This document shows positions 2,544 through 18,601 of a stretch of 18,601 nt of DNA, piece by piece. Numbering within the stretch: position 1 is the stretch's first letter; each line of letters begins with the position of its first letter. The stretch lies in the NCBI GenBank assembly GCA_029777145.1, contig JAKOSS010000013.1, forward strand, positions 1-18,601, written 5' to 3'. The position numbers and the translations under genes are program-made. The stretch is from Acidobacteriota bacterium (GTDB taxonomy: Bacteria; Acidobacteriota; Blastocatellia; Pyrinomonadales; Pyrinomonadaceae). The notes below the pieces were generated by a model. The model saw only the letters and a program-made list of their open reading frames with translations, searched no databases and was not told the origin of the DNA.

Positions 2544-2571
2544 AATCAAGAAATATAGGAGAAATAACGAG

Positions 2572-5169: not shown

Positions 5170-5533
5170 ACAGCGTCGAGGAATCGGCGAAGCAGAGTCG
5201 GTTTCCGAACGGATCGACCGCATAGAAACTGAGTTCGCCCCATGGCCGGCGAACGATCGCTCCGCCCGGTTCGCCGTGGATCGATTCAGTAGAAAGACAG
5301 CCGAGCGACGAGGCCCGTTCAAATACGGCATCGAGGTCATCGACCGCGAAATAGACGATCTCCGAAAGCGGCGGTTTGCCGGATTGAACCAGTGCGACGA
5401 TCACGCCGCCGCAGTCGAAGTAGGAACGTACGCCGCGGACATCGCGACCGGCAACGCCGAGAAGGGTTTCGTAGAATTGCGCGGCGGCGTTGATGTCGCT
5501 GACAGGAACGGCGATCCGGAAAAGCTTCATCAT
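5159..5533 (-). CDS. VOC-fold (glyoxalase/bleomycin-resistance-like) protein
   Basis: A 124-aa single-domain VOC-superfamily protein. The N-terminal module (FRIAVPVSDINAAAQFYETL) and the C-terminal module (IVYFAVDDLDAVFERASSLG, followed by WGELSFYAVDPFGNRLCF) show the paired beta-alpha-beta-beta-beta pattern and the typical DPFGN motif. VOC proteins are usually metal-dependent enzymes or small-molecule binders; the substrate cannot be told here. Start codon ATG at 5533 or the adjacent ATG at 5530. It follows the DUF1569 gene with a 2-base gap, so coupled translation is likely. The 3' end overlaps the convergent membrane gene by 11 bases. Confidence 0.85.
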   Translation of the reverse strand: MMKLFRIAVPVSDINAAAQFYETLLGVAGRDVRGVRSYFDCGGVIVALVQSGKPPLSEIVYFAVDDLDAVFERASSLGCLSTESIHGEPGGAIVRRPWGELSFYAVDPFGNRLCFADSSTLFTG

Positions 5534-5535
5534 GT

Positions 5536-5985
5536 TCAACTCGAGAATTGACGAAGATGATGATCGATATGTTTGTACTGGGTCACGCCCCATTCGCGTC
5601 CCGTCAATCGACCGAAGAAGCCGTGAATGTTGCCGTCGACGCCGTGTTCGCCGAGCTCGTGGAAATCGACCACGAGCTTTCTCAGGCGGGCTCTCGTCGG
5701 TTCGAACTCGGGGTCGTCCTTGATGATGAAATCAGGTCCGGTCGGCGCGCTTTTCGGGAACGGCTTCTCGCCAATAAAGTCGTTCCTGAACATCCAGCCG
5801 ATCAGTTTGCCGAGCATTCTTTGCGGTTGCGGGTTGATTCCGGCGGCCATTTCGAGCGCCCTCGCGGTGTGTTCGAGCATTTGCGAATGGGACATTTTTC
5901 CCCACTGGCGCTCGGCGTCGGCGCTGAACGCGTCGAGCCGCGAAAGGATCTCGTTGTAGCCATCGTCTTCGAAAATGGATTTCAT
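5536..5985 (-). CDS. DUF1569 (DinB-like fold) protein
   Basis: A 149-aa cytoplasmic protein of the DUF1569 type, related to the DinB/YfiT four-helix fold. The family-like features are WGKMSHSQMLEHTARAL at about 28-44 and HGFFGRLTGREWGVTQYKHIDHHL near the C-terminus. The histidines at His33, His39 and in HIDHH resemble the three-His metal site of DinB-like proteins. Function unknown; related folds include thiol-dependent transferases. The start ATG at 5985 has AAGGAA about 11 bases upstream on the coding strand. It is the first gene of a two-gene unit with the VOC gene, transcribed away from the 6126 operon. Confidence 0.85.
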   Translation of the reverse strand: MKSIFEDDGYNEILSRLDAFSADAERQWGKMSHSQMLEHTARALEMAAGINPQPQRMLGKLIGWMFRNDFIGEKPFPKSAPTGPDFIIKDDPEFEPTRARLRKLVVDFHELGEHGVDGNIHGFFGRLTGREWGVTQYKHIDHHLRQFSS

Positions 5986-6075
5986 GGGCGTCGTGTTCCT
6001 TTGAAAAATTTGATTAGAAAACTACGCGAAATCGTCAATTCTGTAAAGCGAAAGAAATTTGCGGCAGGCGCAAAC

Positions 6076-6084
6076 TGGTATAAC
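6076..6084 (+). promoter_or_regulatory. Extended -10 promoter for the 6126 operon
   Basis: TGGTATAAC is an extended -10 element (TGN followed by TATAAC). The -35 region at about 6056-6061 (AATTTG) is weak, as is usual for extended -10 promoters. The gene starts 41 bases downstream. The same TGGTATA core occurs in the promoter before the 4240 membrane gene. Confidence 0.5.
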
Positions 6085-6125
6085 ATGAGGGCGCTCCAGA
6101 CAAACGCATACACGGAGGATTTCCG

Positions 6126-6560
6126 ATGGTAAGAAACATTCTCGCCGTGATAATCGGATACGTCGGCTATTTCATACTGGTCTTCGTCACCTTTTCGGCG
6201 CTCTATCTCGTCCTCGGTCCCGAACAAACGTTTGTGCCGGGCAAATTCGACGTGACGATGACGTGGGTCGTTCCGAGCGTCGCATTAATGATCGTTTGCG
6301 GGATCGCCGGCGGGTTCGTTGCCGCGATGGTCGGCACCGATTCCCGCGTCGGAATGGGACTTGCGATCACCATCTTGGTTCTCGGGATCGCGATGACATT
6401 GCCGGACATGCTCGCCGCGCCGCCGACAGGTGCGCGTGATCCCAACCTGGGCAATTGGGACGCGATGCTCCAGGCGCGAACGCCGCTCTGGGTCCTGATC
6501 GCGAATCCCGTGGTTGCCGCCCTCGGAGCGTTGATCGGCTCGAGCCTGCGCCGGAAATAA
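6126..6560 (+). CDS. Small multi-pass membrane protein (MVRNIL type)
   Basis: A 144-aa predicted inner-membrane protein with about four hydrophobic segments: residues 3-30, about 47-67, about 76-95 and about 120-140. It begins MVRNILAVIIGYV, very like MVRNILSVVLAFV of the 11906 protein, so the two are probably paralogues. No named family is assigned. The start is supported by GGAGG at 6114-6118, 7 bases upstream. The stop is followed after a single base by the MmcQ/YjbR gene, so they form an operon with the downstream AraC regulator. Confidence 0.8.
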   Translation: MVRNILAVIIGYVGYFILVFVTFSALYLVLGPEQTFVPGKFDVTMTWVVPSVALMIVCGIAGGFVAAMVGTDSRVGMGLAITILVLGIAMTLPDMLAAPPTGARDPNLGNWDAMLQARTPLWVLIANPVVAALGALIGSSLRRK

Positions 6561-6561
6561 T

Positions 6562-6903
6562 ATGGAGATCACGAAACTGAGGGAGTTCTGCCTGTCTTTG
6601 CCCGGCGCGGACGAGGACGTCAAATGGGGGAATGACCTGTGCTTCATCGTCGGCGGGAAAATGTTTTGCGTTACGGGCTTCGAACCGGGCTCCGGAATCA
6701 CGATCAAGGTATCGGACGAAGAGTTTGAAACGATGTGCGAATTGCCCGGCGTCGCTCCGGCGCATTACGTCGGGCGCTACAAATGGGTCACGGTATCGGA
6801 CCGAAAACGGTTCAGTGACGAAGATTGGAAGCGCTTGATCGGCCGGAGTTACGAATTGATCGCGGCGAAACTGCCAAAGAAGCTTCGTCCGTCGGTCGAC
6901 TGA
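6562..6903 (+). CDS. MmcQ/YjbR family protein
   Basis: A 113-aa protein of the MmcQ/YjbR (CyaY-like fold) family, small cytoplasmic proteins often annotated as DNA-binding but without established function. The family signature is clear: LREFCLSLPGADEDVKWGND, then CFIVGGKMFCVTG, and a C-terminal WKRLIGRSYELIAAKLPKK helix. Length is normal. It starts one base after the preceding membrane gene and ends 18 bases before the AraC gene, so all three are likely on one transcript. Confidence 0.9.
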   Translation: MEITKLREFCLSLPGADEDVKWGNDLCFIVGGKMFCVTGFEPGSGITIKVSDEEFETMCELPGVAPAHYVGRYKWVTVSDRKRFSDEDWKRLIGRSYELIAAKLPKKLRPSVD

Positions 6904-6921
6904 ACCGACTCTTTTCGACAA

Positions 6922-7740
6922 ATGATTTTGGAAACTTACATCCCGGGTCCGCCGCTCGACCGATTCGTCGAATTCATGATCTTTCATGAGTCGTACAATC
7001 CCGGCCACAACTGGGAGCGGTTTCTGCCCGACGGGAACGTCGAACTCGTCATCGACCTTCACGACGAACCCAAATTCATCTTTGACAACGATTCGCTGAC
7101 CGAGGTCCAGGCGTGCCGGAAGATGTGGTTTTCCGGGTTGCGAACGGCGCCGATAACGATCCCGACCGGCGGCGATGCGTCGATGATGGTGATCAACTTC
7201 AAGCGCGGGATGGCGTATCCGTTCCTGCCGTTTCCGATGACGGAGATCGCGGACCGGGTCGTCGACGTCGGACTCGTTTGGGGCGACGCGTTCGGCGAAT
7301 TGCGCGAAAAGGTGATCGAGCACCGGCTTTCGCGTGAGAAGTTCTTATCGGCCGAAGCCTTTCTCGTCCGGTTTCTGAGGTCGAACATCGGACTGAACCC
7401 GTGCGTCGAATACGCCATCACAACGATCGCGCGTGCGCCGCATCAGGCGTCGATGCAATCGCTGAGCGCAAAGATCGGCTACTCGCAGAAACATTTCATT
7501 TCGATGTTCAAGCGACATGTCGGTGTCACGCCGAAGCGTTACATGAAGTTGATGAGGTTTCAACGTGCCGTGAATCTGATCGAGGCAGCTCCCGTACAAA
7601 ATTGGACCGATCTTTCGCTCGAATGCGGGTTCTTCGACCAGTCGCACCTGATCAACGATTTCAAGTCATTCTCGGGGTTCACGCCCGAAGACTACGTGCG
7701 ACGGCGCGGCGATTTTCTGAACTATGTTCCCGTGGGATAG
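6922..7740 (+). CDS. AraC-family transcriptional regulator
   Basis: A 272-aa AraC/XylS-type regulator. The N-terminal ligand/effector region (about 1-160) looks like the DUF6597 type (FLPDGNVELVIDLHDEP). The two C-terminal helix-turn-helix units are at about 177-197 (LSAKIGYSQKHFISMFKRHV) and 227-250 (DLSLECGFFDQSHLINDFK), followed by the conserved GFTPEDYVR. This domain type usually binds upstream of nearby genes and is controlled by a small ligand, here unknown. It is the third gene of the 6126 operon and lies next to the run of small enzymes, so a local role is plausible. No clear ribosome binding site is seen before the ATG at 6922. Confidence 0.92.
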   Translation: MILETYIPGPPLDRFVEFMIFHESYNPGHNWERFLPDGNVELVIDLHDEPKFIFDNDSLTEVQACRKMWFSGLRTAPITIPTGGDASMMVINFKRGMAYPFLPFPMTEIADRVVDVGLVWGDAFGELREKVIEHRLSREKFLSAEAFLVRFLRSNIGLNPCVEYAITTIARAPHQASMQSLSAKIGYSQKHFISMFKRHVGVTPKRYMKLMRFQRAVNLIEAAPVQNWTDLSLECGFFDQSHLINDFKSFSGFTPEDYVRRRGDFLNYVPVG

Positions 7741-7786
7741 GCGCACGTAAAATTCTTCCAATCAAAAAACGGAGATACGCGACATA

Positions 7787-8272
7787 ATGAACCGCAAACT
7801 GATTGTCCCGATCCTGATCTTGCTCTCGCTCGCCGGTCCGGCGTTCGCCCAGAATAATGCGGCGAACGACCTCGGGACGGCCCGAAAGATCCTCGCCGGC
7901 GACTGGAAGGTCAACGGCAAAGACATCTACGAATCGTGGTCGGCCGACGGGCAGAGTTTCTTCGGCCGCGGCTTTCGGCTTAAAGAAGGCGCAGAAGTCG
8001 TGACCGAGCGACTTGAGATCCGCGAGATCGAAGGCGCCGTTTATTATCTCGCGACGGTCGCGGACCAGAACAACGGCGCGACGATCCGGTTCAAACTGAC
8101 GGAATCGACCGAAAACAGGATCCGGTTTGAAAATCCGGAGCACGATTTTCCAAAGAAGCTGATCTATACGAAGACGGGTACCGACGAACTGACGGTAAAC
8201 GTGCTCGGCGCCGGCGATAAGGGATTCACTTTGGTGATGTCGCGGCTGAAAGCGGTGAAGAAGCCGGAGTGA
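7787..8272 (+). CDS. Exported DUF6265-type protein
   Basis: A 161-aa precursor with a clear Sec signal peptide (MNRKLIVPILILLSLAGPAFA, cleavage likely after AFA at residue 21), so the mature protein is periplasmic or secreted. The rest matches the DUF6265 pattern: DIYESWSADGQSFFGRGF, then FENPEHDFPKKLIY, near-invariant in this family. Function is unknown; a lipocalin-like beta barrel is likely. GGAG at 7771-7774 lies 12 bases before the ATG, so the ribosome site is loose. It stands 46 bases after the AraC gene. Confidence 0.82.
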   Translation: MNRKLIVPILILLSLAGPAFAQNNAANDLGTARKILAGDWKVNGKDIYESWSADGQSFFGRGFRLKEGAEVVTERLEIREIEGAVYYLATVADQNNGATIRFKLTESTENRIRFENPEHDFPKKLIYTKTGTDELTVNVLGAGDKGFTLVMSRLKAVKKPE

Positions 8273-8308
8273 AACCAATCAGAATCGAAAGCGTAGTATC
8301 TGAAAAAC

Positions 8309-8665
8309 ATGTACGATCCGGTTCTTGAACAACGCGTGGCAGCGCGACTCGAAGCCTCAGGTGCCGCTTTTGAAACGAAGCGCATGTTCGGCGGGATCTG
8401 CTTTCTCGTCGATGACAAGATGTGCGTCGGGATCGTCGACGATGCGCTGATGGTCCGATTCGATCCGGCGCAGAACGACGAGATCATGGCACGCGACGAC
8501 GTGCGCGAGATGGATTTTACGAAGCGCACGATGCGCGGATTCGCGTTCGTCGACGGCGAGCATATCGACAACGACGGCCGGCTCTCGTACTGGATCGAAC
8601 TCGCGCTCGAATACAATCCGCGGGCGAAGCGGTCTTCAAAAAAGGAGAAGAAACAAAATGGATGA
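8309..8665 (+). CDS. TfoX/Sxy N-terminal-domain protein
   Basis: A 118-aa protein made only of the TfoX N-terminal domain (RMFGGICFLVDDKMCVGI at about 25-42). The motifs LMVRFDP and RGFAFVDG follow. Full TfoX/Sxy competence regulators have an additional C-terminal domain that is absent here; standalone TfoX-N proteins are common and of unknown function. The C-terminus is lysine-rich (KRSSKKEKKQNG) and the last eight coding bases overlap the following VOC gene, implying coupled translation. Confidence 0.88.
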   Translation: MYDPVLEQRVAARLEASGAAFETKRMFGGICFLVDDKMCVGIVDDALMVRFDPAQNDEIMARDDVREMDFTKRTMRGFAFVDGEHIDNDGRLSYWIELALEYNPRAKRSSKKEKKQNG

Positions 8666-9083
8666 AGGAAATCAGGGAATGCCGAAACACGGTCAGTTCT
8701 GTTGGACCGAGATCGCGGTCGCAGATCTTGAGACGGCGCGGAAGTTTTTCGCGAACGTCTTAGGCTGGCACATGCACGAGAGCCACGATCCGAACCCGGC
8801 AATGGAATATCAGGAATACAGCTCCGACGGCGGCTATCCGATGGGCGGAATGTATCAGATCGATCCGAAATTTTTTGGCGGCAATCCGCCTCCGCCGCAT
8901 TTCTTGAATTACATCGCGGTCGACGACGTCGACGCGACGGCAACGAGAGCCGTTGAACTCGGGGCGAAGATCATCAACGGGCCGATGGACATTCCGAACG
9001 TCGGCCGATTTGCGGTGATTCAGGATCCGGTCGGTGCGATGTTCGCCGCAATCACTTTGAACGCAGGAGGGGCAAATGGCTGA
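8658..9083 (+). CDS. VOC-fold protein, first of a tandem set
   Basis: A 141-aa VOC protein of the glyoxalase-like type. N-terminal half FCWTEIAVADLETARKFFANVLGW; C-terminal half NYIAVDDVDATATRAVELGAKI followed by DIPNVGRFAVIQDPVGAMFA. The pattern resembles Cfp30B-like actinobacterial proteins. Substrate unknown. The ATG at 8658 is supported by AGGAGA at 8643-8648; a second ATG at 8679 is possible. It overlaps the TfoX gene by 8 bases and the next VOC gene by 8 bases. Confidence 0.88.
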   Translation: MDEGNQGMPKHGQFCWTEIAVADLETARKFFANVLGWHMHESHDPNPAMEYQEYSSDGGYPMGGMYQIDPKFFGGNPPPPHFLNYIAVDDVDATATRAVELGAKIINGPMDIPNVGRFAVIQDPVGAMFAAITLNAGGANG

Positions 9084-9483
9084 TTTCAATCCGGGAAAAT
9101 ACGGCACGCCATGCTGGTACGAGCTGACGTCAGCAAACATAGACGCGGTGAAGGACTTCTACAAGGAACTCTTCGGTTGGCAGCTCGAACAAAGCGCACT
9201 CTCGCCAGTTCCATATGACGAGATCCATCTCGACGGTCGCGCGTTCGGCGGCATGATGAAGATCGACGAGAACTGGGGACCCGACTGGGACAAGATCCCG
9301 GCTCACTGGATGACGTACATCAGCGTCGAGGACTGCGACGCGACCGTTGAAGCGATCAAGGCGAACGACGGCACCGTCTGCGTTCCGCCGTTTGATATTC
9401 CGAACATCGGAAGGATGTCGGTCTGCAGTGAACCGTCCGGAGCAACGTTCACAGTTATCCGTTTCGTGTCACCCGAGGCGTAG
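9076..9483 (+). CDS. VOC-fold protein, second of a tandem set
   Basis: A 135-aa VOC protein that is similar in plan to its upstream neighbour (CWYELTSANIDAVKDFYKELFGW; TYISVEDCDATVEAIKANDG; PPFDIPNIGRMSVCSEPSGATF). The shared DIPN(V/I)GR motif marks the pair as close paralogues, probably a tandem duplication, possibly acting as halves of a heteromer. The ATG overlaps the upstream stop by 8 bases (ATGGCTGA), with AGGAGGGG a few bases before it. Confidence 0.88.
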   Translation: MADFNPGKYGTPCWYELTSANIDAVKDFYKELFGWQLEQSALSPVPYDEIHLDGRAFGGMMKIDENWGPDWDKIPAHWMTYISVEDCDATVEAIKANDGTVCVPPFDIPNIGRMSVCSEPSGATFTVIRFVSPEA

Positions 9484-9487
9484 AAAT

Positions 9488-9865
9488 ATGGACAAGAATA
9501 CCAATGCAATTAATTGGTTCGAGATCCCGGCGACGGATATCCAACGCGCGAAGACGTTCTACGAGACGATCTTTCAGATCGAAATGCAGGCAACGCCGCT
9601 TCCGATGCTCTTTACGTTTCCATACGAACCCGGAAGCGGAAAAGCGAGCGGCGGAATCATGCAGCACGAGATGTATGTTCCGTCAGAGACGGGCGTCACG
9701 ATCTACCTGAACGCCAATCCGAACATTCAGTCGGTGATCGACCGTATCGAGCCGGCCGGCGGCCAGATCATCATTCCGAAGACGATGATCAGCCCCGAGA
9801 TCGGATATATGTGCTTTTTCCGCGATACGGAAGGCAACCGTCTGGCGCTGATGGCGCAGGGGTGA
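9488..9865 (+). CDS. VOC-fold protein, third of a tandem set
   Basis: A 125-aa VOC protein (INWFEIPATDIQRAKTFYETIF; then IYLNANPNIQSVIDRIEPAGGQI; CFFRDTEGNRLALMAQG). It is less similar to the first two: it lacks the DIPNVGR motif and has IGYMCFFRDTEGN instead. The ATG lies 4 bases after the previous stop. Role unknown; three consecutive VOC genes suggest subunits of one enzyme or duplicated detoxification functions. Confidence 0.88.
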   Translation: MDKNTNAINWFEIPATDIQRAKTFYETIFQIEMQATPLPMLFTFPYEPGSGKASGGIMQHEMYVPSETGVTIYLNANPNIQSVIDRIEPAGGQIIIPKTMISPEIGYMCFFRDTEGNRLALMAQG

Positions 9866-9869
9866 CGAT

Positions 9870-10457
9870 ATGATCAAAGCAAAGAACGCGGACGAGTTCT
9901 TCGCGAAAGCCAAGGGATACAACGACGAACTTCGTTCGCTGCGCACGATCGCCTTGTCGACCGGATTGGTCGAAACCGTGAAATGGGGGCATCCGGTCTA
10001 CACGTTCGACGGCAAGAACATCGTCGGACTCGGAAGTTTCAAAAGCTACTTCGGACTCTGGTTCTTTCAAGGCGCGTTGTTGAAGGATCCGGCGAAGCGG
10101 CTCGTGAATGCGCAGGAAGGCGTGACGAACGCGCAACGCCAGATGCGTTTCAACTCGGCTGACGAGATCGACCGCGGACTGATCGTGTCATACATCGAAG
10201 AGGCGGTCGCGAACGAGCGCGCCGGGAAAAAGATCAAACCGCAGAGCAAACCGCTTGTAATCCCGCCCGAGTTGCAGGCGGCGTTCGATTCGGACTCGTC
10301 GCTGGCTGAGGCCTTCGACGGTCTCGGCCTGACGAAAAAGCGCGACTATTGCGAGTATGTCGAGGTTGCGAAACGCGCCGAGACGAAACAACAAAGGCTT
10401 GAGAAGATCATTCCGATGATCCGCGAAGGCCTCGGAATGAACGACAAATACAGGTAA
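9870..10457 (+). CDS. DUF1801-YdeI/OmpD-associated family protein
   Basis: A 195-aa cytoplasmic protein. The N-terminal part (residues about 8-110) has the DUF1801/YdhG pattern (ALSTGLVETVKWGHPVYTFDGKNIVGL, then GLWFFQGALL), which has been linked to iron binding in some members. The C-terminal part (about 125-195) has the YdeI/OmpD-associated pattern (LVIPPELQAAFDSDSSLAEAFDGLGLTKKRDYCEYV). Function not established. It lies 4 bases after the third VOC gene and 2 bases before the exported fusion gene, so it belongs to the same transcript. Confidence 0.88.
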   Translation: MIKAKNADEFFAKAKGYNDELRSLRTIALSTGLVETVKWGHPVYTFDGKNIVGLGSFKSYFGLWFFQGALLKDPAKRLVNAQEGVTNAQRQMRFNSADEIDRGLIVSYIEEAVANERAGKKIKPQSKPLVIPPELQAAFDSDSSLAEAFDGLGLTKKRDYCEYVEVAKRAETKQQRLEKIIPMIREGLGMNDKYR

Positions 10458-10459
10458 AT

Positions 10460-11266
10460 ATGAATCGAACAGTGCTTCTCCTTTTTATCCTCGCGGCTGC
10501 CGCAACGGCGTTTGGGCAGTCCGCCAAAAAGCCGGACGCGGTGGTTCGGGATTTCATCGCGGCGTTCAACGCACAGGACGTCGACCGGTCGATCGCCCTG
10601 ACGTCCAAGGATATGAAATGGTTCACCGTTTCCGGAGCGACGATCATGACTGAAACGGCGAATCAGGATGAGTTGCGCACGTTTCTCGTCGACTATTTCA
10701 AAAATTGTCCTTCGTGCCGGTCAAAGGTCTCGAATCTGATGGTTGCCGGTCCGCGAGTATCGTTTACCGACACATCGTCGTGGAAGACCGACAAAGGTAC
10801 CGAATTCAAAGACAACTTCGCGGTCTATGAGGTCGAAAACGGATTGATCGTCCGTGCTTATTATTACGAAGCGCCGGGTCCGAACGGTTACAACCAGCGG
10901 CTCGCCAAGAAGCTCGGGGCCGATGATCTCGGGATGAAAACCTATGTGTTCGTTCTGCTCAAGTCCGGCCCGAAGACGTTTCCGAAAGAAGAGCGCGACA
11001 AACTCGTCGCGGGCCACTTGCAGAACATCGGACGCCTCGCGAGACAAGGAACGCTGGTGCTCGCCGGGCCGTTCGGCGAGAACGACGCGATCCGCGGGAT
11101 CTATGTCTTCGACGTCCGTTCGAAAGACGAAGCGAAGAAGTTGGTGGAGACCGATCCGGCGGTCGCGGCCGGCGTCTTCGAGTGCGAATTCCGGCTTTGG
11201 TACGGGTCGGCGGGACTCCTGGAACTGAACGGCATCCACAACGCGATCAGTAAGAACAAATTGTAA
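10460..11266 (+). CDS. Exported SnoaL-like/YciI fusion protein
   Basis: A 268-aa protein with a probable signal peptide (MNRTVLLLFILAAAATAFG, cleavage near residue 19). Domain 1, about 24-150, is NTF2/SnoaL-like (VVRDFIAAFNAQDVDRSIAL, then FAVYEVENGLIVRAYYYE). Domain 2, about 160-250, is YciI-like (YVFVLLKSGP, then HLQNIGRLARQGTLVLAGPF, and GIYVFDVRSKDEAKKLVETD). YciI domains are normally cytoplasmic, so an exported fusion is unusual. The function is unknown. It starts 2 bases after the YdeI-family stop, so it is co-transcribed with it. Confidence 0.82.
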   Translation: MNRTVLLLFILAAAATAFGQSAKKPDAVVRDFIAAFNAQDVDRSIALTSKDMKWFTVSGATIMTETANQDELRTFLVDYFKNCPSCRSKVSNLMVAGPRVSFTDTSSWKTDKGTEFKDNFAVYEVENGLIVRAYYYEAPGPNGYNQRLAKKLGADDLGMKTYVFVLLKSGPKTFPKEERDKLVAGHLQNIGRLARQGTLVLAGPFGENDAIRGIYVFDVRSKDEAKKLVETDPAVAAGVFECEFRLWYGSAGLLELNGIHNAISKNKL

Positions 11267-11290
11267 ATATCGGGTTTGGACGGTCATGAA

Positions 11291-11320
11291 TTGACCGATG
11301 AACCAAATCGGACTTATCGG
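11291..11320 (+). promoter_or_regulatory. Possible promoter for the SRPBCC operon
   Basis: TTGACC (11291-11296) and TATCGG (11315-11320) are 18 bp apart, a weak sigma-70 match. The same region has ACCGAT (11294-11299) facing two ATCGG copies (11307-11311 and 11316-11320), which could be a regulator site. Both readings are tentative. Confidence 0.3.
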
Positions 11321-11352
11321 TAGTACGAATTTAATTCTTCGGAGGGAACGGA

Positions 11353-11904
11353 ATGAAGATCTTGAAGATTTTGGGCGGATTGGTGTTGTTGGTCGTGATC
11401 GCGGTCGCGGCCTTGATTTTCCTGGTGCCGGCAGACTACAAGGTTGAACGTGAAGTAACGATCAACAAGCCGCGCGCCGAGGTTTTCGCGTACGCGAAGA
11501 TGCTCAAGAACCAGAACGATTGGGGGCCGTGGGTCAAGCGCGATCCGAACATCAAACTCAACTACAAGGGGAACGACGGCGAGCCCGGATTCGTATCATC
11601 TTGGGAGAGTGAAAAACAAGACGTCGGAACCGGCGAACAGGAGATCAAGAAGATCGACGACGGCAAACGCATCGAAACCGAGTTGAGGTTCAAAAAGCCG
11701 TTCGAATCCAAAAGCGATGCCTACATGACGATGGAGGATGCCGGGCCGGATCAGACGAAGGTCAAGTGGGGATTTACCGGCACGATGCCGCGGCCGCTCA
11801 ACCTGATGCTGCTTTTCATGGATATGGATAAAGAGGTCGGAAAGGATTTTGATGCCGGACTCGGGACCCTGAAAACTATCGTCGAGAAAGGCGGGGGAAA
11901 CTAA
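11353..11904 (+). CDS. Membrane-anchored SRPBCC-family protein
   Basis: A 183-aa protein with an N-terminal hydrophobic segment (about 4-27, ILGGLVLLVVIAVAALIFLV) that is probably a membrane anchor. An SRPBCC (polyketide cyclase/START-like) domain follows (VEREVTINKPRAEVFAYAKML, WGPWVKRDPN, KVKWGFTG). The family binds hydrophobic ligands; the anchor suggests a role at the membrane face. GGAGGG at 11341-11346 is about 6 bases before the ATG. It is followed after one base by the 11906 membrane gene. Confidence 0.86.
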   Translation: MKILKILGGLVLLVVIAVAALIFLVPADYKVEREVTINKPRAEVFAYAKMLKNQNDWGPWVKRDPNIKLNYKGNDGEPGFVSSWESEKQDVGTGEQEIKKIDDGKRIETELRFKKPFESKSDAYMTMEDAGPDQTKVKWGFTGTMPRPLNLMLLFMDMDKEVGKDFDAGLGTLKTIVEKGGGN

Positions 11905-11905
11905 G

Positions 11906-12313
11906 ATGGTTCGAAACATTCTGTCGGTCGTACTGGCATTCGTCATTGGCGGACTGGCCGTCTTCGCGGTTGAAAAGATCGGCCATACCGTCTATCCGGT
12001 ACCTGCCGGTCTCGATGCCAACAATCTTGAAGGACTCGCGGAGTACGTGAAATCGATGTCGATCGGCGCGTTCCTGTTCGTGCTTGCGGCCCAAAGCGCG
12101 GGATCGCTGATCGGCGGACTCGTGACCGGATTCGTGTCCGTCGCGAAGTTCCCGACGGCGCTTATCTACGGCATCCTGGCCCTGATCATGGCGGCGCTGA
12201 ACGCGTTTGCGATACCGCACCCGATCTGGTTCACGATCGTGTCATTGGTGCTCCCGATCCCGCTGGCGCTCCTCGGATCGCGGATCGGCCAGTCGCTTTG
12301 GGTGAAGTCGTAA
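11906..12313 (+). CDS. Small multi-pass membrane protein (MVRNIL type)
   Basis: A 135-aa predicted inner-membrane protein with about four hydrophobic segments (3-24, about 51-73, about 80-100, about 104-125). Its N-terminus MVRNILSVVLAFV is nearly the same as that of the protein at 6126, so they are probable paralogues. No named family assigned. It is one base after the SRPBCC stop and abuts the next gene (stop at 12311-12313, ATG at 12314), so three genes share one transcript. Confidence 0.8.
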   Translation: MVRNILSVVLAFVIGGLAVFAVEKIGHTVYPVPAGLDANNLEGLAEYVKSMSIGAFLFVLAAQSAGSLIGGLVTGFVSVAKFPTALIYGILALIMAALNAFAIPHPIWFTIVSLVLPIPLALLGSRIGQSLWVKS

Positions 12314-12676
12314 ATGGCCGGGATCCTCGGGATCGTTCCCGTTCTGCCGTCTCAGGACATCGCGCGTGACATCGAATGGTACCGCGACTACGCCGGGTTC
12401 GATCCGCTTTGGTTCGATTCGATGTACGCGGTACTGCGCCGCGATGATTTCTGGCTGCACCTGCAATGGCATGACGACACGGACGACGACCCTTTGCTCG
12501 GCGGTTCGGTGATCAGGATCTTTGTTGACGAGATCGGTCCGTGGTTCGAGGAGTTCGTCGGCCGCGGAACCGTTCCTCAGGATAAACTCCGGCGCGATAC
12601 GCCCTGGGGAACGCACGAATTCGGCTTTTTCGATCTGAACCGGAACGCGGTCTTTGTTGTGCAGGACGCGGGATAG
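12314..12676 (+). CDS. VOC-fold, bleomycin-resistance-type protein
   Basis: A 120-aa VOC-fold protein resembling the bleomycin-binding group (GIVPVLPSQDIARDIEWYRDYAGF; FWLHLQWHDDTD; IRIFVDEIGPWFEEFV; WGTHEFGFFDLNRNAVFVV). Drug binding is not shown by the sequence. It abuts the membrane gene directly with no gap. It is convergent with the ASCH gene, with 2 bases between the stops and no visible hairpin terminator. Confidence 0.86.
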   Translation: MAGILGIVPVLPSQDIARDIEWYRDYAGFDPLWFDSMYAVLRRDDFWLHLQWHDDTDDDPLLGGSVIRIFVDEIGPWFEEFVGRGTVPQDKLRRDTPWGTHEFGFFDLNRNAVFVVQDAG

Positions 12677-12678
12677 AT

Positions 12679-13221
12679 CTACAGCATTTTGACGAGCGCT
12701 TCGCCGCGCGGCGAGAGTTTGTAGCCGGGGCGGAGAGATTCCGTCAGTCCGAGCGCTTTCAGGCGTCTCACGCGCGCCTTGAACTTCAGTTTTTCGAGTC
12801 CAAAATCATCGGCCAGGATCTGCGCGTGAATGTTCGGGCGCCGTCCGATCTCACGCAAATATTCGGGCGCCCAGTCTCCCATCCCAAGAACTTTTTCCCT
12901 GATCTTGGCGAGTTCGACCGCGTCAAGATTCTGCCGCATCGCGACGCGCGGGTCCGCGCCGACGTATCGAACCGTGATCCTGTAAAAATCACCTTCGCGA
13001 TCGATCTCGCAAAGGTCGTCGCGCGACGCGAGCCCGGCGTTGCGAATATCCTCGTCGGTGACGAGATCACGATCGATCTGTTCGACGTTCTCGATCGCCA
13101 GGACGCCCTTGCGAGTTTTCAAGGTTCCGCCGGCTTTTACGGTCGGTCGTTTCCAGACACGGAAGACCACCGAGACTTCGCCGGCGATGATTCGATCAAG
13201 AGTCGCATTGTTCAGAAGCAT
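12679..13221 (-). CDS. ASCH-domain protein with C-terminal helical domain
   Basis: A 180-aa protein. The N-terminal half has the ASCH/PUA-like pattern (LDRIIAGEVSVVFRVWKRPTVKAGG, then GVLAIENVEQIDRDLVTDEDIRNAG). ASCH domains are thought to bind RNA or modified nucleotides. The C-terminal half (about 110-180) is helical and looks like a winged-helix unit (ILADDFGLEKLKFKARVRRLKALGLTESLRPGYKLSPRGEALVKML). The start at 13221 (MLLNNATLDR) is chosen because the longer frame from 13356 runs through the promoter. A TGCTAGAAT extended -10 lies at 13268-13276. Function unknown. Confidence 0.85.
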   Translation of the reverse strand: MLLNNATLDRIIAGEVSVVFRVWKRPTVKAGGTLKTRKGVLAIENVEQIDRDLVTDEDIRNAGLASRDDLCEIDREGDFYRITVRYVGADPRVAMRQNLDAVELAKIREKVLGMGDWAPEYLREIGRRPNIHAQILADDFGLEKLKFKARVRRLKALGLTESLRPGYKLSPRGEALVKML

Positions 13222-13267
13222 GATTTCACACCCGTCCGTTTGATAGACGATCAAGACAAACGCTAAG

Positions 13268-13276
13268 ATTCTAGCA
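13268..13276 (-). promoter_or_regulatory. Extended -10 promoter for the ASCH gene
   Basis: On the minus strand TGCTAGAAT is an extended -10 element, 46 bases upstream of the ATG at 13221. The -35 region (GGCAGA on that strand, 17 bp away) is poor. The site lies in the 103-bp divergent gap with the 13325 gene. Confidence 0.4.
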
Positions 13277-13324
13277 GGTTTCCTTTGCGATCTGCCGACT
13301 GGATCGTGCCCCCCAATCAAAGAT

Positions 13325-13687
13325 ATGGCATCGACCGCTCTGACAATCATCAGCAACGGCGAGGGTAAAACCGTCGCCAGATTCCTTCGAAAAAGCTTTG
13401 GGCACGTATCCGGCTACAGTCACACGCTGCTTGCGTTCATGTCCGGCGCCGAGATTCGAAGCGACCGTCCGCCTGACGCCAAAACCTATCACGCAATGGG
13501 GTTCCTGGCGACGTCACTGATCGCGCATCTGACGCCGGCGAATGGCGACACATTCCTTGTTCCGACGGATTCGGAAGTTTCCGCCGATTTCACTTTCAAT
13601 ATCTACGAAAAAGAAGGCGAAATAATCGTCCGGTGCGAGGACAAAGCCGGGGTGATCTTCGAGACGAACGCGACGAGATCCTCTTGA
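13325..13687 (+). CDS. Orphan small protein
   Basis: A 120-aa predicted cytoplasmic protein that I do not recognise. It starts MASTALTIISNGEGKT, has a central hydrophobic stretch (HTLLAFMSGAEI) and a C-terminal strand pattern (FTFNIYEKEGEIIVRCEDKAGVIFE). No signal peptide or clear motif. Codon use looks like its neighbours. It is divergent from the ASCH gene, so a functional link is possible but unproven. Downstream is the duplicated repeat region. It may be lineage specific. Confidence 0.6.
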   Translation: MASTALTIISNGEGKTVARFLRKSFGHVSGYSHTLLAFMSGAEIRSDRPPDAKTYHAMGFLATSLIAHLTPANGDTFLVPTDSEVSADFTFNIYEKEGEIIVRCEDKAGVIFETNATRSS

Positions 13688-13732
13688 TCCAAGGACCAAG
13701 ATTCAGGAGCTTCGTTTGAGACCGGGGTACGC

Positions 13733-13837
13733 GATCTATCAATTCTCAATTGACCGTTAGTTGAAACTTGAGATTTGAGAGTTGAAAGATTCGAGAACAT
13801 TTGCGAAATAACCAATCCGAAATCCCAAATCCCAATT
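13733..13837. repeat. 105-bp direct repeat, copy 1
   Basis: Matches 13900-14004 at 102 of 105 positions by my reading (three substitutions, no gaps); period 167 bases. It contains TCAATTCTCAA and, 25 bases on, TTGAGAGTTGA, which is the inverted repeat of copy 2 with one mismatch that would still be a G-U pair in RNA. Confidence 0.85.
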
Positions 13838-13899
13838 ATTCAGGATTCAAAATTCAAGAGCGCCATTCACGGTAGAATGCGCCGAATCGTCCGAAGTTC

Positions 13900-14004
13900 G
13901 ATCTATCAATTCTCAATTGACCGTTAGTCGAAACTTGAGATTTGAGAATTGAAAGATTCGAGAACATTTGCGAGATAACCAATCCGAAATCCCAAATCCC
14001 AATT
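13900..14004. repeat. 105-bp direct repeat, copy 2
   Basis: Contains a perfect 11-bp inverted repeat, TCAATTCTCAA at 13906-13916 and TTGAGAATTGA at 13942-13952, with a 25-base loop. The C-rich heptads at its right end (CCC at 13991, 13998, 14005) lead up to the stop of the 14016 gene, in whose transcript they read as G-rich. Confidence 0.85.
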
Positions 14005-14015
14005 CCCAAATGGCC

Positions 14016-14621
14016 TCACATCATCTCGAAATCGAGTTCGTCCTCGGATTCTTCGTCGGCGTCTTCAAATGCCGCGGCGGCGTCCTGGAAGCCGACGAAG
14101 TTGATGTTCGCCGGTGTCGTCAGGATCATGAACGGCTGATTTTCTGCGTTTGAAAGAAGAAATGCGGTGTCGGGCATGATGCCGCCGCGGTAGCTGAACT
14201 GAAACTTGTAGATCGCGCCCTCGGAAAGGCGATCGCCGATCGCAACTGCCTCGTCGCCCGTGAGCGCGTAAACCGACTTCACAAGGTGGGAAAGATAATC
14301 CTCGATCGTCGCGCGTTCGAATACCTTGATCGGGGCGTCGAATGACGACGGAACCGTTTCGAGCGGCTCACCGTCGACCGAATAGGCGGTCAGCGATTCG
14401 CGTTTTATCGGATCGTCATCATGAGAAAGCGTCGCGAACGCGGTTCCGCCGATCCCGAACAGCGTTTGCCCGTCAGACGCGAGCGAGATCATTTCGGCCT
14501 TATTGCCGTCCTCGTCAAATGCCTCGATCGTTGTCGTTCCGTAAAGCTTCGACCGGTCAACCTTCTCGATGCCCGCCGTCAGTTCGATCCCGTCAATTTC
14601 GAAAACCAAGTTTCGCGCCAT
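14016..14621 (-). CDS. Unrecognised partner of the Panacea protein, acidic C-terminus
   Basis: A 201-aa predicted cytoplasmic protein that I cannot assign to a named family. Mostly beta-like N-terminal half (NLVFEIDGIELTAGIEKVDR, then TTTIEAFDEDGNKAEMISL, and LFGIGGTAFATLSHDDD), a helical middle (EDYLSHLVKSVYALTG), and a strongly acidic tail ending ELDFEMM. The tail suggests a flexible interaction segment. Its ATG shares one base with the stop of the upstream Panacea gene (TAATG), so the two are translationally coupled. It is therefore a candidate toxin or effector partner, but it lacks any toxin motif I know. Its stop is followed within 6 bases by the G-rich heptad repeat. Confidence 0.75.
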   Translation of the reverse strand: MARNLVFEIDGIELTAGIEKVDRSKLYGTTTIEAFDEDGNKAEMISLASDGQTLFGIGGTAFATLSHDDDPIKRESLTAYSVDGEPLETVPSSFDAPIKVFERATIEDYLSHLVKSVYALTGDEAVAIGDRLSEGAIYKFQFSYRGGIMPDTAFLLSNAENQPFMILTTPANINFVGFQDAAAAFEDADEESEDELDFEMM

Positions 14622-15340
14622 TACCGCTCGCCGAGTTCCGGCATGAATTTCGAATAGGGATACGCGATCTCCTCGCCAGTCCGCGTGTCCTTCCAGGCCC
14701 GTTCCGCGTGCGAGATCTCAGAGATCTCTTCGGCACTGAGTTTGCCGAAGACGGATGCGACCGCATCAAGTGTCTTGTTTTCAGAGTCCGAAAGTGCAAT
14801 TGACGACTTGCCGCCGGCGCGGATCACTTCGCGCACGCCGTGACGCGTCTGGACGGTTTCGATCGAGATAACGTCGTGCTGTTCGAGGTATGCGATGACC
14901 TCCTCATAGCCGTCGACGACCGGGCCATAAGGCAGATGACGGTAGGTCGTCCCTGTGATCGATCGGCCGGTCGCCTTGTAATGGTAAAAATCGGAGTAAA
15001 ACGCGAGTTTGTTGAGCTTGGTCCGCGTCATCATTTTCACGCCGGCGCGCATGATAAAAAACAGCAGGACCGCCGAGAACTTCTCAAGCGAGAATTCGCG
15101 GTAGCCATTGAAGACGCTGCCTTTCGGCAGCGCATCGCGGAGCGCTTGGTGCGCTTTGGCCTGCGGATCGTATAGCGACTGGTCCAAGTCTTCAACGAAT
15201 TCGTCTACAAATCGCTCGAACATCCCGACGAGAGCCGCATCCATCTGCTCGCGAGTCAGGTTTTGTTCGTACTGCGCTTTGAAGAACTTCAGGAGGCCCG
15301 GCGTGTGTCGGGTCAGCTTTTTCCGGATTCGGTCGTTCAT
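14621..15340 (-). CDS. Panacea (DUF4065/SocA-like) domain protein
   Basis: A 239-aa protein. The Panacea domain is recognised at about 85-230 by MTRTKLNKLAFYSDFYHYKATG and TYRHLPYGPV. Panacea domains are promiscuous antitoxin modules, and SocA of Caulobacter is a proteolytic adaptor for its toxin. The N-terminal 80 residues (helical, MNDRIRKKLTRHTPGLLKFF) are an extra region of unknown role, possibly for target binding. Start at 15340 is set by GGAGG at 15345-15349, 4 bases upstream; an upstream TTG at 15394 would run through the promoter. First gene of a two-gene unit with the 14016-14621 protein. Antitoxin function is inferred from the domain only. Confidence 0.85.
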   Translation of the reverse strand: MNDRIRKKLTRHTPGLLKFFKAQYEQNLTREQMDAALVGMFERFVDEFVEDLDQSLYDPQAKAHQALRDALPKGSVFNGYREFSLEKFSAVLLFFIMRAGVKMMTRTKLNKLAFYSDFYHYKATGRSITGTTYRHLPYGPVVDGYEEVIAYLEQHDVISIETVQTRHGVREVIRAGGKSSIALSDSENKTLDAVASVFGKLSAEEISEISHAERAWKDTRTGEEIAYPYSKFMPELGER

Positions 15341-15370
15341 TATGCCTCCGCGACGAAAAGTCGGACTTGC

Positions 15371-15401
15371 ATGATAACACAACCCTAAAATCAAGATTCA
15401 A
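15371..15401 (-). promoter_or_regulatory. Candidate promoter of the Panacea operon
   Basis: On the minus strand TGTTATCAT (15371-15379) is an extended -10. TTGAAT (15396-15401) lies 19 bp upstream as a suboptimal -35 and is formed by the first bases of the left arm of the inverted-repeat element. The leader would be about 25 bases. An autoregulatory site, as expected for an antitoxin operon, was not identified. Confidence 0.35.
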
Positions 15402-15493
15402 GACTCAAAATTCAAGATAGGTGACCGGTTACTCAAGTCCCGTAACTCACGACCCGTGATTCAACGGTCGCCCTTGAATTTTGAATCTTGAAT
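15396..15493. repeat. MITE-like inverted-repeat element
   Basis: The 21-base arms 15396-15416 and 15473-15493 are inverted copies with 20 of 21 positions complementary, enclosing 56 bases. The arm contains TCAAAATTCAAG, the core of the dispersed AATTCAAAATTCAAG motif found at 2213-2229 and 13845-13860. It fills most of the gap between the Panacea gene start and the stop of the 15500 gene. No transposase or clear target duplication is visible. Confidence 0.65.
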
Positions 15494-15499
15494 TCTGGA

Positions 15500-16270
15500 T
15501 TACGAATATATGAGTTCGTCGGCTTCGATGACGTGAGAGGTCGGCGCGTTGAAATCACGTGGGATCTGCAAAAGGATCAGCGCGACGTTCGGATTTATCG
15601 GAAGGCTGTCGGGTCCAAGCTCGGTCCGCGCGATCAAGAATAGCCTCGTCACACCTGCGGCTTCAGCCTCGCCAATGATGTCCTGGACGAAATCGTACTC
15701 GAGTTCGCAAGCAGGTCGCCAGACGATCACCGGTGCGGAATCGATCAGCGCGTCGTACTCAAATCCGTTGATCTCGCCGGGCTCGGCCGGGATCTTGAAG
15801 TAATCGAGGAACGGATCGCCAATCTCGGCCGGTTCAACGGCATGGGACTGCTCCGACTCTTCGGCCGACGGCTCGCGGGTCGCGTCTGCATGCGACTCAG
15901 TCAGATCCGCAAAAGCAGCCGAACACAGCGGGTTGCCGTTCGAAACGGGCATATTGCAAACAGTGCATTTTCCGTTTTTCTGGCGGCAAAAATAGCGATC
16001 CTCGAACGCGCTCAGGGCAGTCTCGACCGCAGCGAACTCGGCTGACGCGCGGATCTTCCGGTCGACCGTGACGAAAGCCGCCCGATCGGTCGGCCGTCCG
16101 CCAAGCCGGGAATTCACCGTTTCCAATTCCGATTCCTTAAGTTTAGAAATGATTGAAGTTACAAGTGGCAACCAAATTCCTGAAGGATAAGCGCCCGGCA
16201 AATCTACGGCAAAAAAGTGCCGCAGAAAACCGGCCTGATCGAATCCGTTTGGAACAGAAAACTTATCCAA
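15500..16270 (-). CDS. Unrecognised protein with a four-cysteine cluster
   Basis: A predicted 256-aa cytoplasmic protein of no family I can name. Four cysteines in C-x6-C-x2-C-x10-C arrangement (about residues 95, 102, 105, 116) suggest a zinc-binding module. After an acidic linker (about 120-160) comes a mixed alpha/beta domain (VIVWRPACELEYDFVQDIIGEAEAAGVTRLFLIARTELG). The start is uncertain: no ATG occurs in frame before about residue 108, so I use TTG at 16270, which has GGGAG about 5 bases upstream; TTG at 16363 would overlap the divergent gene. The first 50 codons have T/A-rich third positions, unlike neighbouring genes. It is divergent from the ligase operon and may belong to the same module. 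Confidence 0.6.
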   Translation of the reverse strand: MDKFSVPNGFDQAGFLRHFFAVDLPGAYPSGIWLPLVTSIISKLKESELETVNSRLGGRPTDRAAFVTVDRKIRASAEFAAVETALSAFEDRYFCRQKNGKCTVCNMPVSNGNPLCSAAFADLTESHADATREPSAEESEQSHAVEPAEIGDPFLDYFKIPAEPGEINGFEYDALIDSAPVIVWRPACELEYDFVQDIIGEAEAAGVTRLFLIARTELGPDSLPINPNVALILLQIPRDFNAPTSHVIEADELIYS

Positions 16271-16340
16271 AGTTCTCCCGGTTATGCTAGGATGAGAAGG
16301 CAAAAACGAGAGTAATTCAAAAGCATTTCGAACGCAAATT

Positions 16341-17057
16341 ATGCCTATCAACCTGGCAAACAAGAATCGTCGGGACGCGCGCGTGTCGCTGCTGGGCGTG
16401 CGTCCGAAACGTGATGTCCGATGGCTCGACGACAGCCGCCGCGAGACGAAGACCGTGCGGCTTCTTCAATGCGACGTCAAACACTCGACCGACAGTCTGC
16501 TCAGGGAATTCGAAGGCGACCTCGACGAACTCGGCCAGGCGATCGCGGATTCCGATCCGGAGATCGATCTCGAACTATTCGGCAAACTTCTGACTGAGAC
16601 GTCGAGGGTTTACGCGGTCGACGGCGAGATCGCCTACCATGTCGAAGAATTCGAAGTGATCACCGACCCGGAAGGAAACCTAAAGGAACGGCGACAGCGC
16701 AGGATCGAACCACAGAACATCAACTCCGACATTCCGTTGATTTGGACCGGCAAGTTTATCCCGAAATCGGAAGCGGTCCGCAAATTCGTTTTCACCGGGA
16801 TGAAGCAGATCACTCATATCAACGGGCTCACGTACGACTTTCTATACGACATTGCGAAAGAACTCGACGAGCGCGACTCGTTCATGCTCCTGGGCGCCGG
16901 GAAGGGCAACCAGCCGTTGATCTTTCAGCGCGGCGGAAAGCCGTACCGAGGATTTCTCGAGGGCCGCGTCGATGGTGATAAATACCTGTTGCTGCTTCAT
17001 TTATCGAACATGGAATTCAAGGCTCCGAAGCCGAAGACGGAGGACGCCGGCGAATGA
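16341..17057 (+). CDS. Unrecognised protein, first gene of the ligase operon
   Basis: A 238-aa predicted cytoplasmic protein without a family I can name. Features: a basic N-terminus (NLANKNRRDARVSLLGVRPKR), an acidic helical stretch (REFEGDLDELGQAIADSDPEIDLELF), then beta-rich sequence ending in KPYRGFLEGRVDGDKYLLLLHLSNMEF. It has no signal peptide or membrane segment. No ribosome binding site precedes the ATG at 16341, so translation may be leaderless or weak. Its stop overlaps the ligase start in ATGA (17054-17057), which indicates tight coupling and a shared role. The basic N-terminus would suit nucleic-acid binding; that is only inference. Confidence 0.72.
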   Translation: MPINLANKNRRDARVSLLGVRPKRDVRWLDDSRRETKTVRLLQCDVKHSTDSLLREFEGDLDELGQAIADSDPEIDLELFGKLLTETSRVYAVDGEIAYHVEEFEVITDPEGNLKERRQRRIEPQNINSDIPLIWTGKFIPKSEAVRKFVFTGMKQITHINGLTYDFLYDIAKELDERDSFMLLGAGKGNQPLIFQRGGKPYRGFLEGRVDGDKYLLLLHLSNMEFKAPKPKTEDAGE

Positions 17058-18520
17058 TCGCGCTCAACTACGACATCGCGCAGTTCTCGCCTAAACTCGG
17101 CGGCTACATGGTCGGACCGGCGACTGCGCTCGAGAATTTCAGTCTTCAGGTCAAAGCCCAGGACTTCAAGCGGCGGATCAGCGGATTGCTTTATCCGACA
17201 AACGGCGACGAGATCGGCGAGAAGCTGCCAAAGAGCGGAAAATATGTTGTCAGCCGAAAGATCGACGGCGAGTTTTCGCTCCTCTGTTTCGATGAAGGAA
17301 AAGCACTGACGGTCAATCCCGGCGGGACCGTTCGGGCCGGACTTCCGTGCATTGCTGAAGCCGCCGAGACGCTGCGCTCGTCCGGCATCCGATCCGCGCT
17401 GATCGCGTGCGAATTGTTCCATCGAAAGCGGCAGGACGGACGCGAGCGCGTTCACGATGCGATCCGCGTCATCCGCAATCCGCGTGACGAAAAGGAACTC
17501 AACGACATTTCGCTCGCGCCGTTCGCGATCCTCGAACTCGACGACGCGATCGTCACCGATTGGGGCGCCGGGCTTGAAAAATTGTCAAAGATCTTCGAAA
17601 ACGGATCGCTCGTGAAGCCGGTCGAGTTCGAACGCGTCGAATCGAACGGCGACGTCATCCGCATTTACGACAGATGGGTTCTCGACGAAGGCTCCGAAGG
17701 CCTCGTCGTGTGGGGCGACCAGGGTGGCTGGAAGATCAAGCCGACGCACACGTTCGACACCGCGGTGATCGGTTTCAGCGAGAGCGTAGAGGATCGCAAA
17801 GGAATGCTCCACGATCTTCTTGTCGGAGTGAAGCGCCCGGACGAGACTTATCACATCCTGACGCGCGTCGGCGGCGGATTCACCGAAAAACTGCGGAAAG
17901 ATCTGTTCGCCGAACTAAAGGAAAGCGTTGCGCCGTCGAACTACACCGAGGTCAATTCGGATCACGTCGCGTATGAAATGGTCCGGCCGAAATACGTGAT
18001 CGAGATGAAATGTCTCGACATCATTTCGGAGAAGGCGCGCGGGGGCGAGATCAACCGAATGGTCATCGACTGGCAGCCAGACGATGCGCGCTGGGTCGCC
18101 TGCCGCCGATTGCCGTTCGTCAGCATCATTTCCCCGCAGTTCGTCCGAGTCCGGGAAGACAAACGGGCGTCGCTCGCCGACATCAACATCCGGCAGATCG
18201 ACAGCATCGTTCCCGTTCCGGACGTCGATCTCAAGGTCGAGGACATTCAACTTCCCAAGTCCGAGGTCGTCGAGCGGATCGTTTACGCGAAAACGCAGGG
18301 CGACAAGAAGATGGTCCGCAAGTTCATGCTCTGGAAGACGAACAAGGAAGCGTCGCGCGAGTATCTGCCGTTCGTCGTCTATTACACCGATTTCAGTTCC
18401 GGACGCGCCGAACCGATCGCGCGCAACATCATGCCCGCCAACACCGTCGAACAGGCGAACGCGATGTTCGCCGAGATGATCGAAAAGAACGTCAAGAAAG
18501 GCTGGGAGAAGGTCGCGTGA
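17054..18520 (+). CDS. ATP-dependent DNA-ligase-like protein
   Basis: A 488-aa nucleotidyltransferase with the covalent-ligase motif order. Motif I is KIDGE with Lys69 as predicted AMP-accepting nucleophile. Glu120 in CELF is motif-III-like, PFAILELDD (156-164) IIIa-like, EGLVVW (215-220) motif IV and WKIKP (226-230) motif V. An OB-fold-like region follows (TRVGGGFTEKL, 270-280) with FVRVREDK (363-370) matching DNA-ligase motif VI. All catalytic elements appear intact. About 65 residues precede motif I and about 118 follow motif VI, without the large DNA-binding domain of eukaryotic/archaeal ligases, and neither extension is recognised. It is distinct from NAD-dependent LigA and from Ku-linked LigD; no Ku, polymerase or nuclease is nearby. 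It sits between two coupled genes by ATGA and GTGA overlaps. Substrate (DNA, RNA or hybrid) unknown. Confidence 0.85.
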   Translation: MIALNYDIAQFSPKLGGYMVGPATALENFSLQVKAQDFKRRISGLLYPTNGDEIGEKLPKSGKYVVSRKIDGEFSLLCFDEGKALTVNPGGTVRAGLPCIAEAAETLRSSGIRSALIACELFHRKRQDGRERVHDAIRVIRNPRDEKELNDISLAPFAILELDDAIVTDWGAGLEKLSKIFENGSLVKPVEFERVESNGDVIRIYDRWVLDEGSEGLVVWGDQGGWKIKPTHTFDTAVIGFSESVEDRKGMLHDLLVGVKRPDETYHILTRVGGGFTEKLRKDLFAELKESVAPSNYTEVNSDHVAYEMVRPKYVIEMKCLDIISEKARGGEINRMVIDWQPDDARWVACRRLPFVSIISPQFVRVREDKRASLADINIRQIDSIVPVPDVDLKVEDIQLPKSEVVERIVYAKTQGDKKMVRKFMLWKTNKEASREYLPFVVYYTDFSSGRAEPIARNIMPANTVEQANAMFAEMIEKNVKKGWEKVA

Positions 18521-18601
18521 TCGATGAGATCTTCAACGATCCGCACCTGAAATGGATCGCCGCCGAGTGGCGCGAGAACGCGGACCGGCTCGCCGATTGG
18601 G
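18517..18601 (+). CDS. Partial gene, start of third ligase-operon protein
   Basis: A GTG at 18517 overlaps the ligase stop (GTGA). An open frame runs to the window edge and encodes MIDEIFNDPHLKWIAAEWRE and further residues. Only 28 codons are visible, so no family call is possible. The helical, tryptophan-containing N-terminus has no signal peptide. The four-base overlap makes co-translation with the ligase likely. Confidence 0.6.
   Translation, partial: MIDEIFNDPHLKWIAAEWRENADRLADW

Follow-up and report, generated by a model that had tools for sequence, protein, structure and literature searches.

The window analyzed here is an 18,601-nucleotide stretch of forward-strand DNA from an Acidobacteriota bacterium (assembly GCA_029777145.1, contig JAKOSS010000013.1, positions 1 to 18,601), and at its 3' end lies a gene cluster that we consider likely to encode a divergent form of bacterial nonhomologous end joining (NHEJ). 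Three genes on the forward strand are joined by the short overlaps ATGA (17054-17057, gene 1/ligase) and GTGA (18517-18520, ligase/gene 3), both read directly in the sequence and as described in the original prediction: gene 1 (16341..17057), encoding a 238-residue protein without known sequence family and with a predicted Ku fold (designated subunit A); a 488-residue ATP-dependent DNA ligase (17054..18520), organized into a nucleotidyltransferase, an OB fold and a new C-terminal domain; and gene 3, whose first 28 codons (18517..18601, GTG start) run off the window and correspond to the beginning of a predicted fusion of an AEP-TOTE primase-polymerase to a HAD phosphatase. A fourth member, gene 0 (14016..14621, reverse strand), sits 1.7 kb upstream of gene 1 on the other strand and encodes a 201-residue protein, likewise with a predicted Ku fold (subunit B). 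The same order is found in a close relative, the metagenome-assembled Acidobacteriota contig JAKQII010000355.1, where the ligase is 94% identical to that of the window and where gene 1 (9288-10004), the ligase (10001-11467) and a complete gene 3 (11464-12624) follow one another. A promoter scan returned none, and a terminator scan returned nothing above shuffled sequences. The original prediction had placed the ligase between two unknown proteins with neither Ku nor LigD at the locus; it overlooked the identity of gene 3 as well as gene 0 altogether, and its picture gives way to one in which a primase-polymerase-phosphatase and two proteins of predicted Ku fold accompany the ligase. The profile searches that it had called for assigned the ligase and gene 3 to families but left gene 1 without one.

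The ligase matches the Pfam family DNA_ligase_A_C (1.8e-9) and, under its cut-off, DNA_ligase_A_M (0.0077). All four motifs read at the outset are present, namely motif I (KIDGE, residues 69-73, at 17258..17272 on the forward strand, with K69 as the predicted AMP-binding lysine), motif IV (EGLVVW, 215-220), motif V (WKIKP, 226-230) and motif VI (FVRVREDK, 363-370), and their residues are conserved in homologs. At least 1091 homologs were found at E<=0.001, the best 120 of which cover 87-100% of the query, and in an alignment of 22 sequences the motif residues, K69, D71, G72 and E73 among them, are invariant throughout. A residue check on 19 ligases, comprising that of the window and those of 18 of the 25 genomic contexts described below (the other seven were truncated or split, or their start was unclear), found K69, D71, G72, E73, E120, F157, E215, G216, K227, K229, R367, D369 and K370 identical in all 19, so that 13 of 15 catalytic-type positions are fully conserved and the remaining two, N88 and R94, vary solely in the most distant cluster. 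PF04679 is detected in 22/22 ligases and PF01068 in 19/22 (Pfam, E<=1), and a profile built from the 22 homologs retrieves archaeal and eukaryotic DNA ligases from the PDB with a best value of 7.7e-16. As judged from its nucleotidyltransferase motifs and OB domain, the protein is a member of the ATP-dependent DNA ligase superfamily. The "long unrecognized extensions" noted earlier shrink to its last ~105-115 residues, for which no family was found. This C-terminal domain (about residues 385-488, 18206..18517, forward strand) shows 20 invariant columns, many of them basic, across the 12 rows of alignment A6, and it has neither a meaningful Pfam match (10 members searched) nor a PDB sequence match; a WGR domain, guessed by eye, found no support in Pfam (E<=10, the same number of members) or among PDB sequences. 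In one otherwise conserved cluster (L100, genome G339), the ligase match is split over two frames, consistent with either a pseudogene or an assembly error.

The 28 residues of gene 3 present in the window are, start codon aside, those of the 386-residue protein encoded at 11464-12624 in the close relative, which matches PF22548 (AEP-TOTE) at 5.5e-7. That family is found in all four members examined; LigD_Prim-Pol matches one of the four, at 0.07. A profile of these four sequences retrieves 7nqd and 7nqf (7e-7), labeled in the PDB as TPR-region proteins and which we take to be CRISPR-associated primase-polymerases, as well as the HAD-like structure 1xpj (3.7e-6). With 7p9j, presumably of the same kind, and the TOTE AEP, 7nqd and 7nqf are the nearest relatives of the AEP domain among solved structures (7e-7); the protein of the cluster differs from them in its fusion to a HAD phosphatase and its association with a ligase. 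Enzymes of the CRISPR-associated type are the subject of PMC8211822. Among the 18 complete proteins, drawn from 21 gene-bearing contexts after omission of three truncated ones, D107, D109, H153 and E188, presumably the catalytic DxD, H and EhFP residues of AEPs, are invariant, as are D270, D272, K351, D359 and D360, which we take to be the DxD, Lys and DD catalytic motifs of HAD phosphatases; the sole catalytic-type exception is one glycine, replaced by serine in two of the 18. By its sequence, gene 3 is an AEP-TOTE primase-polymerase joined to a HAD phosphatase. An RNA-repair cluster, in which phosphatase and ligase would mend cleaved RNA, could be read from matches of PF09414 (RNA_ligase) to 9 of the 22 ligases (best 1.6e-6) and from a weak match of the RNA-repair family HAD_SAK_2 to one of the four AEP-HAD proteins (0.068). 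We hold it to be highly improbable: DNA_ligase_A_C is present in 22/22 ligases, the best profile matches are DNA-ligase structures, and a template-dependent polymerase and Ku folds suit DNA ends better than RNA.

The predicted structure of gene 0 displays the Ku core fold, and a Ku fold is, more tentatively, predicted for gene 1 as well. VIA placed SPOC and Integrator barrels below Ku, in a list that cannot show folds ranked lower by Foldseek. Neither protein matches the Pfam family PF02735 (Ku) at E<=1, as is also the case for 44 members of the gene 0 family; NCBIfam returned nothing for either, and in PHROGs gene 0 has no match and gene 1 one at 0.077. Homologs of gene 1 number 3079 at E<=0.001. 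Profile comparisons of gene 0 with gene 1, for shared ancestry, and of gene 1 with the ligase were not significant. In all 74 rows of alignment A5, the C-terminus of gene 0 consists of an acidic stretch and then, in order, a hydrophobic residue, one of D, E, G, S or N, an aromatic F or Y, and 1-4 further residues. In the window the protein ends in EDELDFEMM (tail with ELDFEMM end at 14019..14060, reverse strand), and acidic residues number 7.7 per 12 in the tail, where the composition of the remaining protein would predict 2.0. Bacterial SSB has an acidic C-terminal tip, and by this likeness the tail is a candidate docking point. Canonical bacterial Ku contacts LigD through its C-terminus (PMC9638933). 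Next to gene 0 lies a gene for a protein with a SocA/Panacea antitoxin-type domain (14621-15394, reverse strand; PF13274, 9e-22), with a counterpart at 7502-8305 in the close relative; its stop codon shares one base with the start of gene 0, and the two may therefore be cotranslated. Between it and gene 1, a 287-residue protein with a Cys-containing stretch and no family found (15500-16363, reverse strand) is kept in the relative at 8447-9310, and its TTG start would lie head-to-head with that of gene 1, in an overlap of 23 bases.

Several results weigh against reading these proteins as Ku and the cluster as an end-joining system. The gene 1 model has a confidence (predicted local distance difference test, pLDDT) of 57.9, with Ku nearly tied with SPOC domains, and hhalign comparison of gene 0 and gene 1 with 21 of 30 fetched Ku sequences gave nothing significant. 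The best family of the HAD part is phrog_1238 (8.7e-11, labeled phosphoheptose isomerase), followed by polynucleotide kinase (9e-4), while the NCBIfam matches, to a capsule phosphatase (0.0015) and to HAD-IIIA (0.0024), both fall below cut-off; the substrate proposed for this domain is therefore drawn from the company the gene keeps rather than from its family. The SPOC near-tie and the HAD family matches led us to lower our confidence in Ku-fold-based end joining, if only slightly. Were the Ku match a modeling artefact, one or both of gene 0 and gene 1 would adopt some other fold, and the cluster would be a ligase-polymerase repair operon with accessory proteins of unknown kind, as the low pLDDT, the near-tie and the negative Ku profile comparison would allow; we regard this as unlikely, given that two independent families return the same fold answer beside two types of enzyme that work with Ku.

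The genes of the cluster occur together. Our neighborhood survey of the Acidobacteriota yielded 25 contexts, 24 from the order of the close relative plus one from genome G199. In a phylum sample of 297 genomes, five carry the ligase family (E 4e-119 or better), each with a single ligase-profile match at E<=0.001, and gene 1 and gene 0 occur in the same five; the ligase matches in a further 28 genomes (1.3e-16 or weaker) belong to other ATP ligases. Full-length AEP-HAD is present in four of the five and in none of the rest, 12 other genomes matching one of its domains only (3.8e-13 or weaker). Across 119 genomes of the relative's order, the ligase (E<=1e-30) is found in 24, gene 1 in 25 and gene 0 in 24; all 24 ligase genomes carry gene 1 and 22 carry gene 0. 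In each of the four mismatched genomes (G339, G343, G360 and G363) the cluster lies at a contig end, and in G339 the final 24 residues of gene 0 are still encoded. Of the 25 genomes, 24 have gene 1 immediately upstream of the ligase: those of 23 of the 25 contexts, and G352, where the ligase is split over two contigs and gene 0 and gene 1 adjoin its N-terminal part; the exception is G359, in which gene 0 and gene 1 are together on a contig other than that of the ligase. In 21/25, AEP-HAD is found downstream of the ligase, either adjoining it or at a distance of up to about 2.2 kb, and it is unseen in four: three contigs end in or just behind the ligase, and none was found in the genome of G199. 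The cluster of the latter (L035) is the most distant, with gene 1 37% and the ligase 33% identical, and it possesses both Ku-like genes and the ligase. In contig C45 of G341 (L088), the match to gene 1 falls into two parts (profile 1-182 and 189-234), indicating a broken frame or a misassembly there. By protein names, the ligase and gene 1 families extend to the Planctomycetota. A neighborhood survey had been set as the check that might undo the notion of a dedicated sealing system with a repair flavor, and the notion withstood it, the genes and their order being conserved in relatives.

The ligase has no plasmid match and no viral-contig match, and the largest related contig measures 1.27 Mb. 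We read the cluster as a real and conserved repair system, probably chromosomal. A phage or plasmid origin was considered and set aside, since the ligase has no such match and a single Vibrio phage record touches the HAD part alone (27% of query, 37.7% identity). A role in phage conflict, as first suggested, would have a primase-like domain and end-binding proteins sense invading ends in a system akin to TOTE, and the membership of the AEP domain in Pfam AEP-TOTE (4/4 members) speaks for it. TOTE conflict systems combine an AEP with associated helicase or nuclease effectors; the conserved members here include no helicase or nuclease (most neighbors being unscanned). PADLOC, run on gene 1, the ligase and the 28-residue start of gene 3 but on neither gene 0 nor the complete gene 3, gave no match, and eight flanking proteins from three related loci are metabolic, regulatory or peptidases (2-oxoglutarate dehydrogenase, an HD-domain protein, LysR, RelA/SpoT, ExbD, two peptidases and a PD40-repeat regulator). 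With none of these scans pointing to conflict, we find a defensive function quite improbable.

Canonical Ku is absent by profile from the genomes with the cluster: PF02735 was found in 0/25 searched directly (0/5 and 0/20), with a positive Bacillus subtilis control. In the phylum sample it occurs in 97 of 297 genomes and in none of the five with the cluster, an outcome with a chance of 0.14, and in the order it occurs in 21 of 119 genomes with zero overlap with the 24 that carry the cluster (Fisher 0.007, uncorrected for relatedness). As relatedness is uncorrected, mutual exclusion of the cluster and canonical Ku is suggestive only. Among the 21 canonical-Ku genomes of the order, 15 have at least three Ku matches, many with two side by side on one contig, and this canonical tandem pair in sister lineages is worth comparing with the gene 0/gene 1 pair. 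Ku heterodimers occur in Sinorhizobium, and the Ku proteins of both Streptomyces and Sinorhizobium belong to the canonical family. Several NHEJ-like genes are known in Streptomyces (PMC5124664).

A Ku-fold pair, a ligase, an AEP polymerase and a phosphatase make up a parts list for NHEJ, and Ku-fold-based end joining is the reading we favor. It starts from what was observed (the enzyme families, their intact catalytic residues, conserved linkage and co-occurrence, and no canonical Ku by profile) and from the Ku fold predicted for both proteins, from which we infer the heterodimer, end binding, recruitment, the HAD substrate and the order of steps. In the proposed mechanism, gene 0 and gene 1 would together make up a ring, most likely heterodimeric, that binds and encircles the broken end; that the heterodimer is obligate we consider about evenly balanced. 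Two separate enzymes would be recruited by the ring, with the acidic tip of gene 0 and the new C-terminal domain of the ligase as possible points of contact, whereupon the HAD domain of gene 3 may strip 3'-phosphates or other blocking phosphates from the ends, its AEP domain may fill short gaps or extend annealed overhangs, and the ATP-dependent ligase would seal the nick. Eukaryotic NHEJ employs Ku70/Ku80, DNA ligase IV, polymerases mu and lambda, and PNKP; if the two proteins do form a heterodimer, the cluster would resemble this machinery in combining a two-subunit Ku with a separate ligase, a polymerase and a HAD-type phosphatase. The likeness would be one in division of labor; no evidence points to direct descent, and proteins of 200-240 residues have no room for vWA or SAP domains.

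The cluster would take the role of the homodimeric Ku and multidomain LigD that constitute bacterial NHEJ (PMC12784961). Both arrangements comprise a Ku fold (predicted here), an ATP-dependent ligase, an AEP-family polymerase and a phosphatase, but the cluster has two distinct Ku-like proteins undetected by PF02735, its ligase and polymerase are separate open reading frames without fusion to a LigD-type polymerase domain, its AEP matches PF22548, and a HAD domain joined to the polymerase provides its phosphatase. Its nearest functional relative without Ku is mycobacterial LigC/Prim-PolC, where a stand-alone ligase and a separate primase-polymerase share an operon and where 3'-phosphates must be removed before filling (PMC5663958). 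A gap- or excision-repair complex of this type, filling and sealing gaps of 1-3 nucleotides with the Ku-like proteins as scaffolds instead of rings, would account for the fusion of a HAD phosphatase to the polymerase; it is a rather unlikely alternative, as gene 0 and gene 1 co-occur as tightly as the ligase, and as the operons of three mycobacterial species carry an FPG glycosylase (same source), none of which was among the eight flanking proteins scanned at three loci, the cluster having instead the predicted Ku-fold pair and the fused phosphatase.

That end joining of this kind represents a second, independent bacterial NHEJ lineage, with an obligate Ku-like heterodimer and separate ligase and polymerase-phosphatase, running through one Acidobacteriota order in genomes scored as Ku-negative, is a claim we would neither press nor dismiss. 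Such a lineage would have escaped notice since sequence profiles detect neither of its Ku-like subunits. An NHEJ survey of 5,973 bacterial genomes relied on hidden Markov models of Ku and LigD at E 1e-4, and it uses the words "planctomycetes" and "heterodimer" 0 times (PMC7719229); a Ku phylogeny uses the former 0 times and the latter 7 times, where shown on eukaryotic Ku (PMC11936186). The literature searched, with few subscription papers and no bioRxiv, described no such cluster, no profile-invisible Ku pair in Acidobacteriota and no AEP-HAD fusion with a ligase, which is no proof of unpublished status.

Elsewhere in the window, an AAA+ protein of the RarA/MgsA type (941-2164, forward strand; PF12002, 4.8e-48) and an ECF-type sigma factor with Sigma-70 regions 2 and 4 and DUF6596 (2894-4150, forward strand) are encoded.

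If Ku-fold-based end joining holds true, a set of bacteria scored as lacking NHEJ would own an end-joining kit, and the distribution and ancestry of NHEJ would need to be redrawn. A bacterial two-subunit Ku with separate enzymes would furthermore offer a compact system, amenable to reconstitution, to set beside the eukaryotic machine, and the ligase, the polymerase-phosphatase and the end-binding pair might prove useful in DNA editing.
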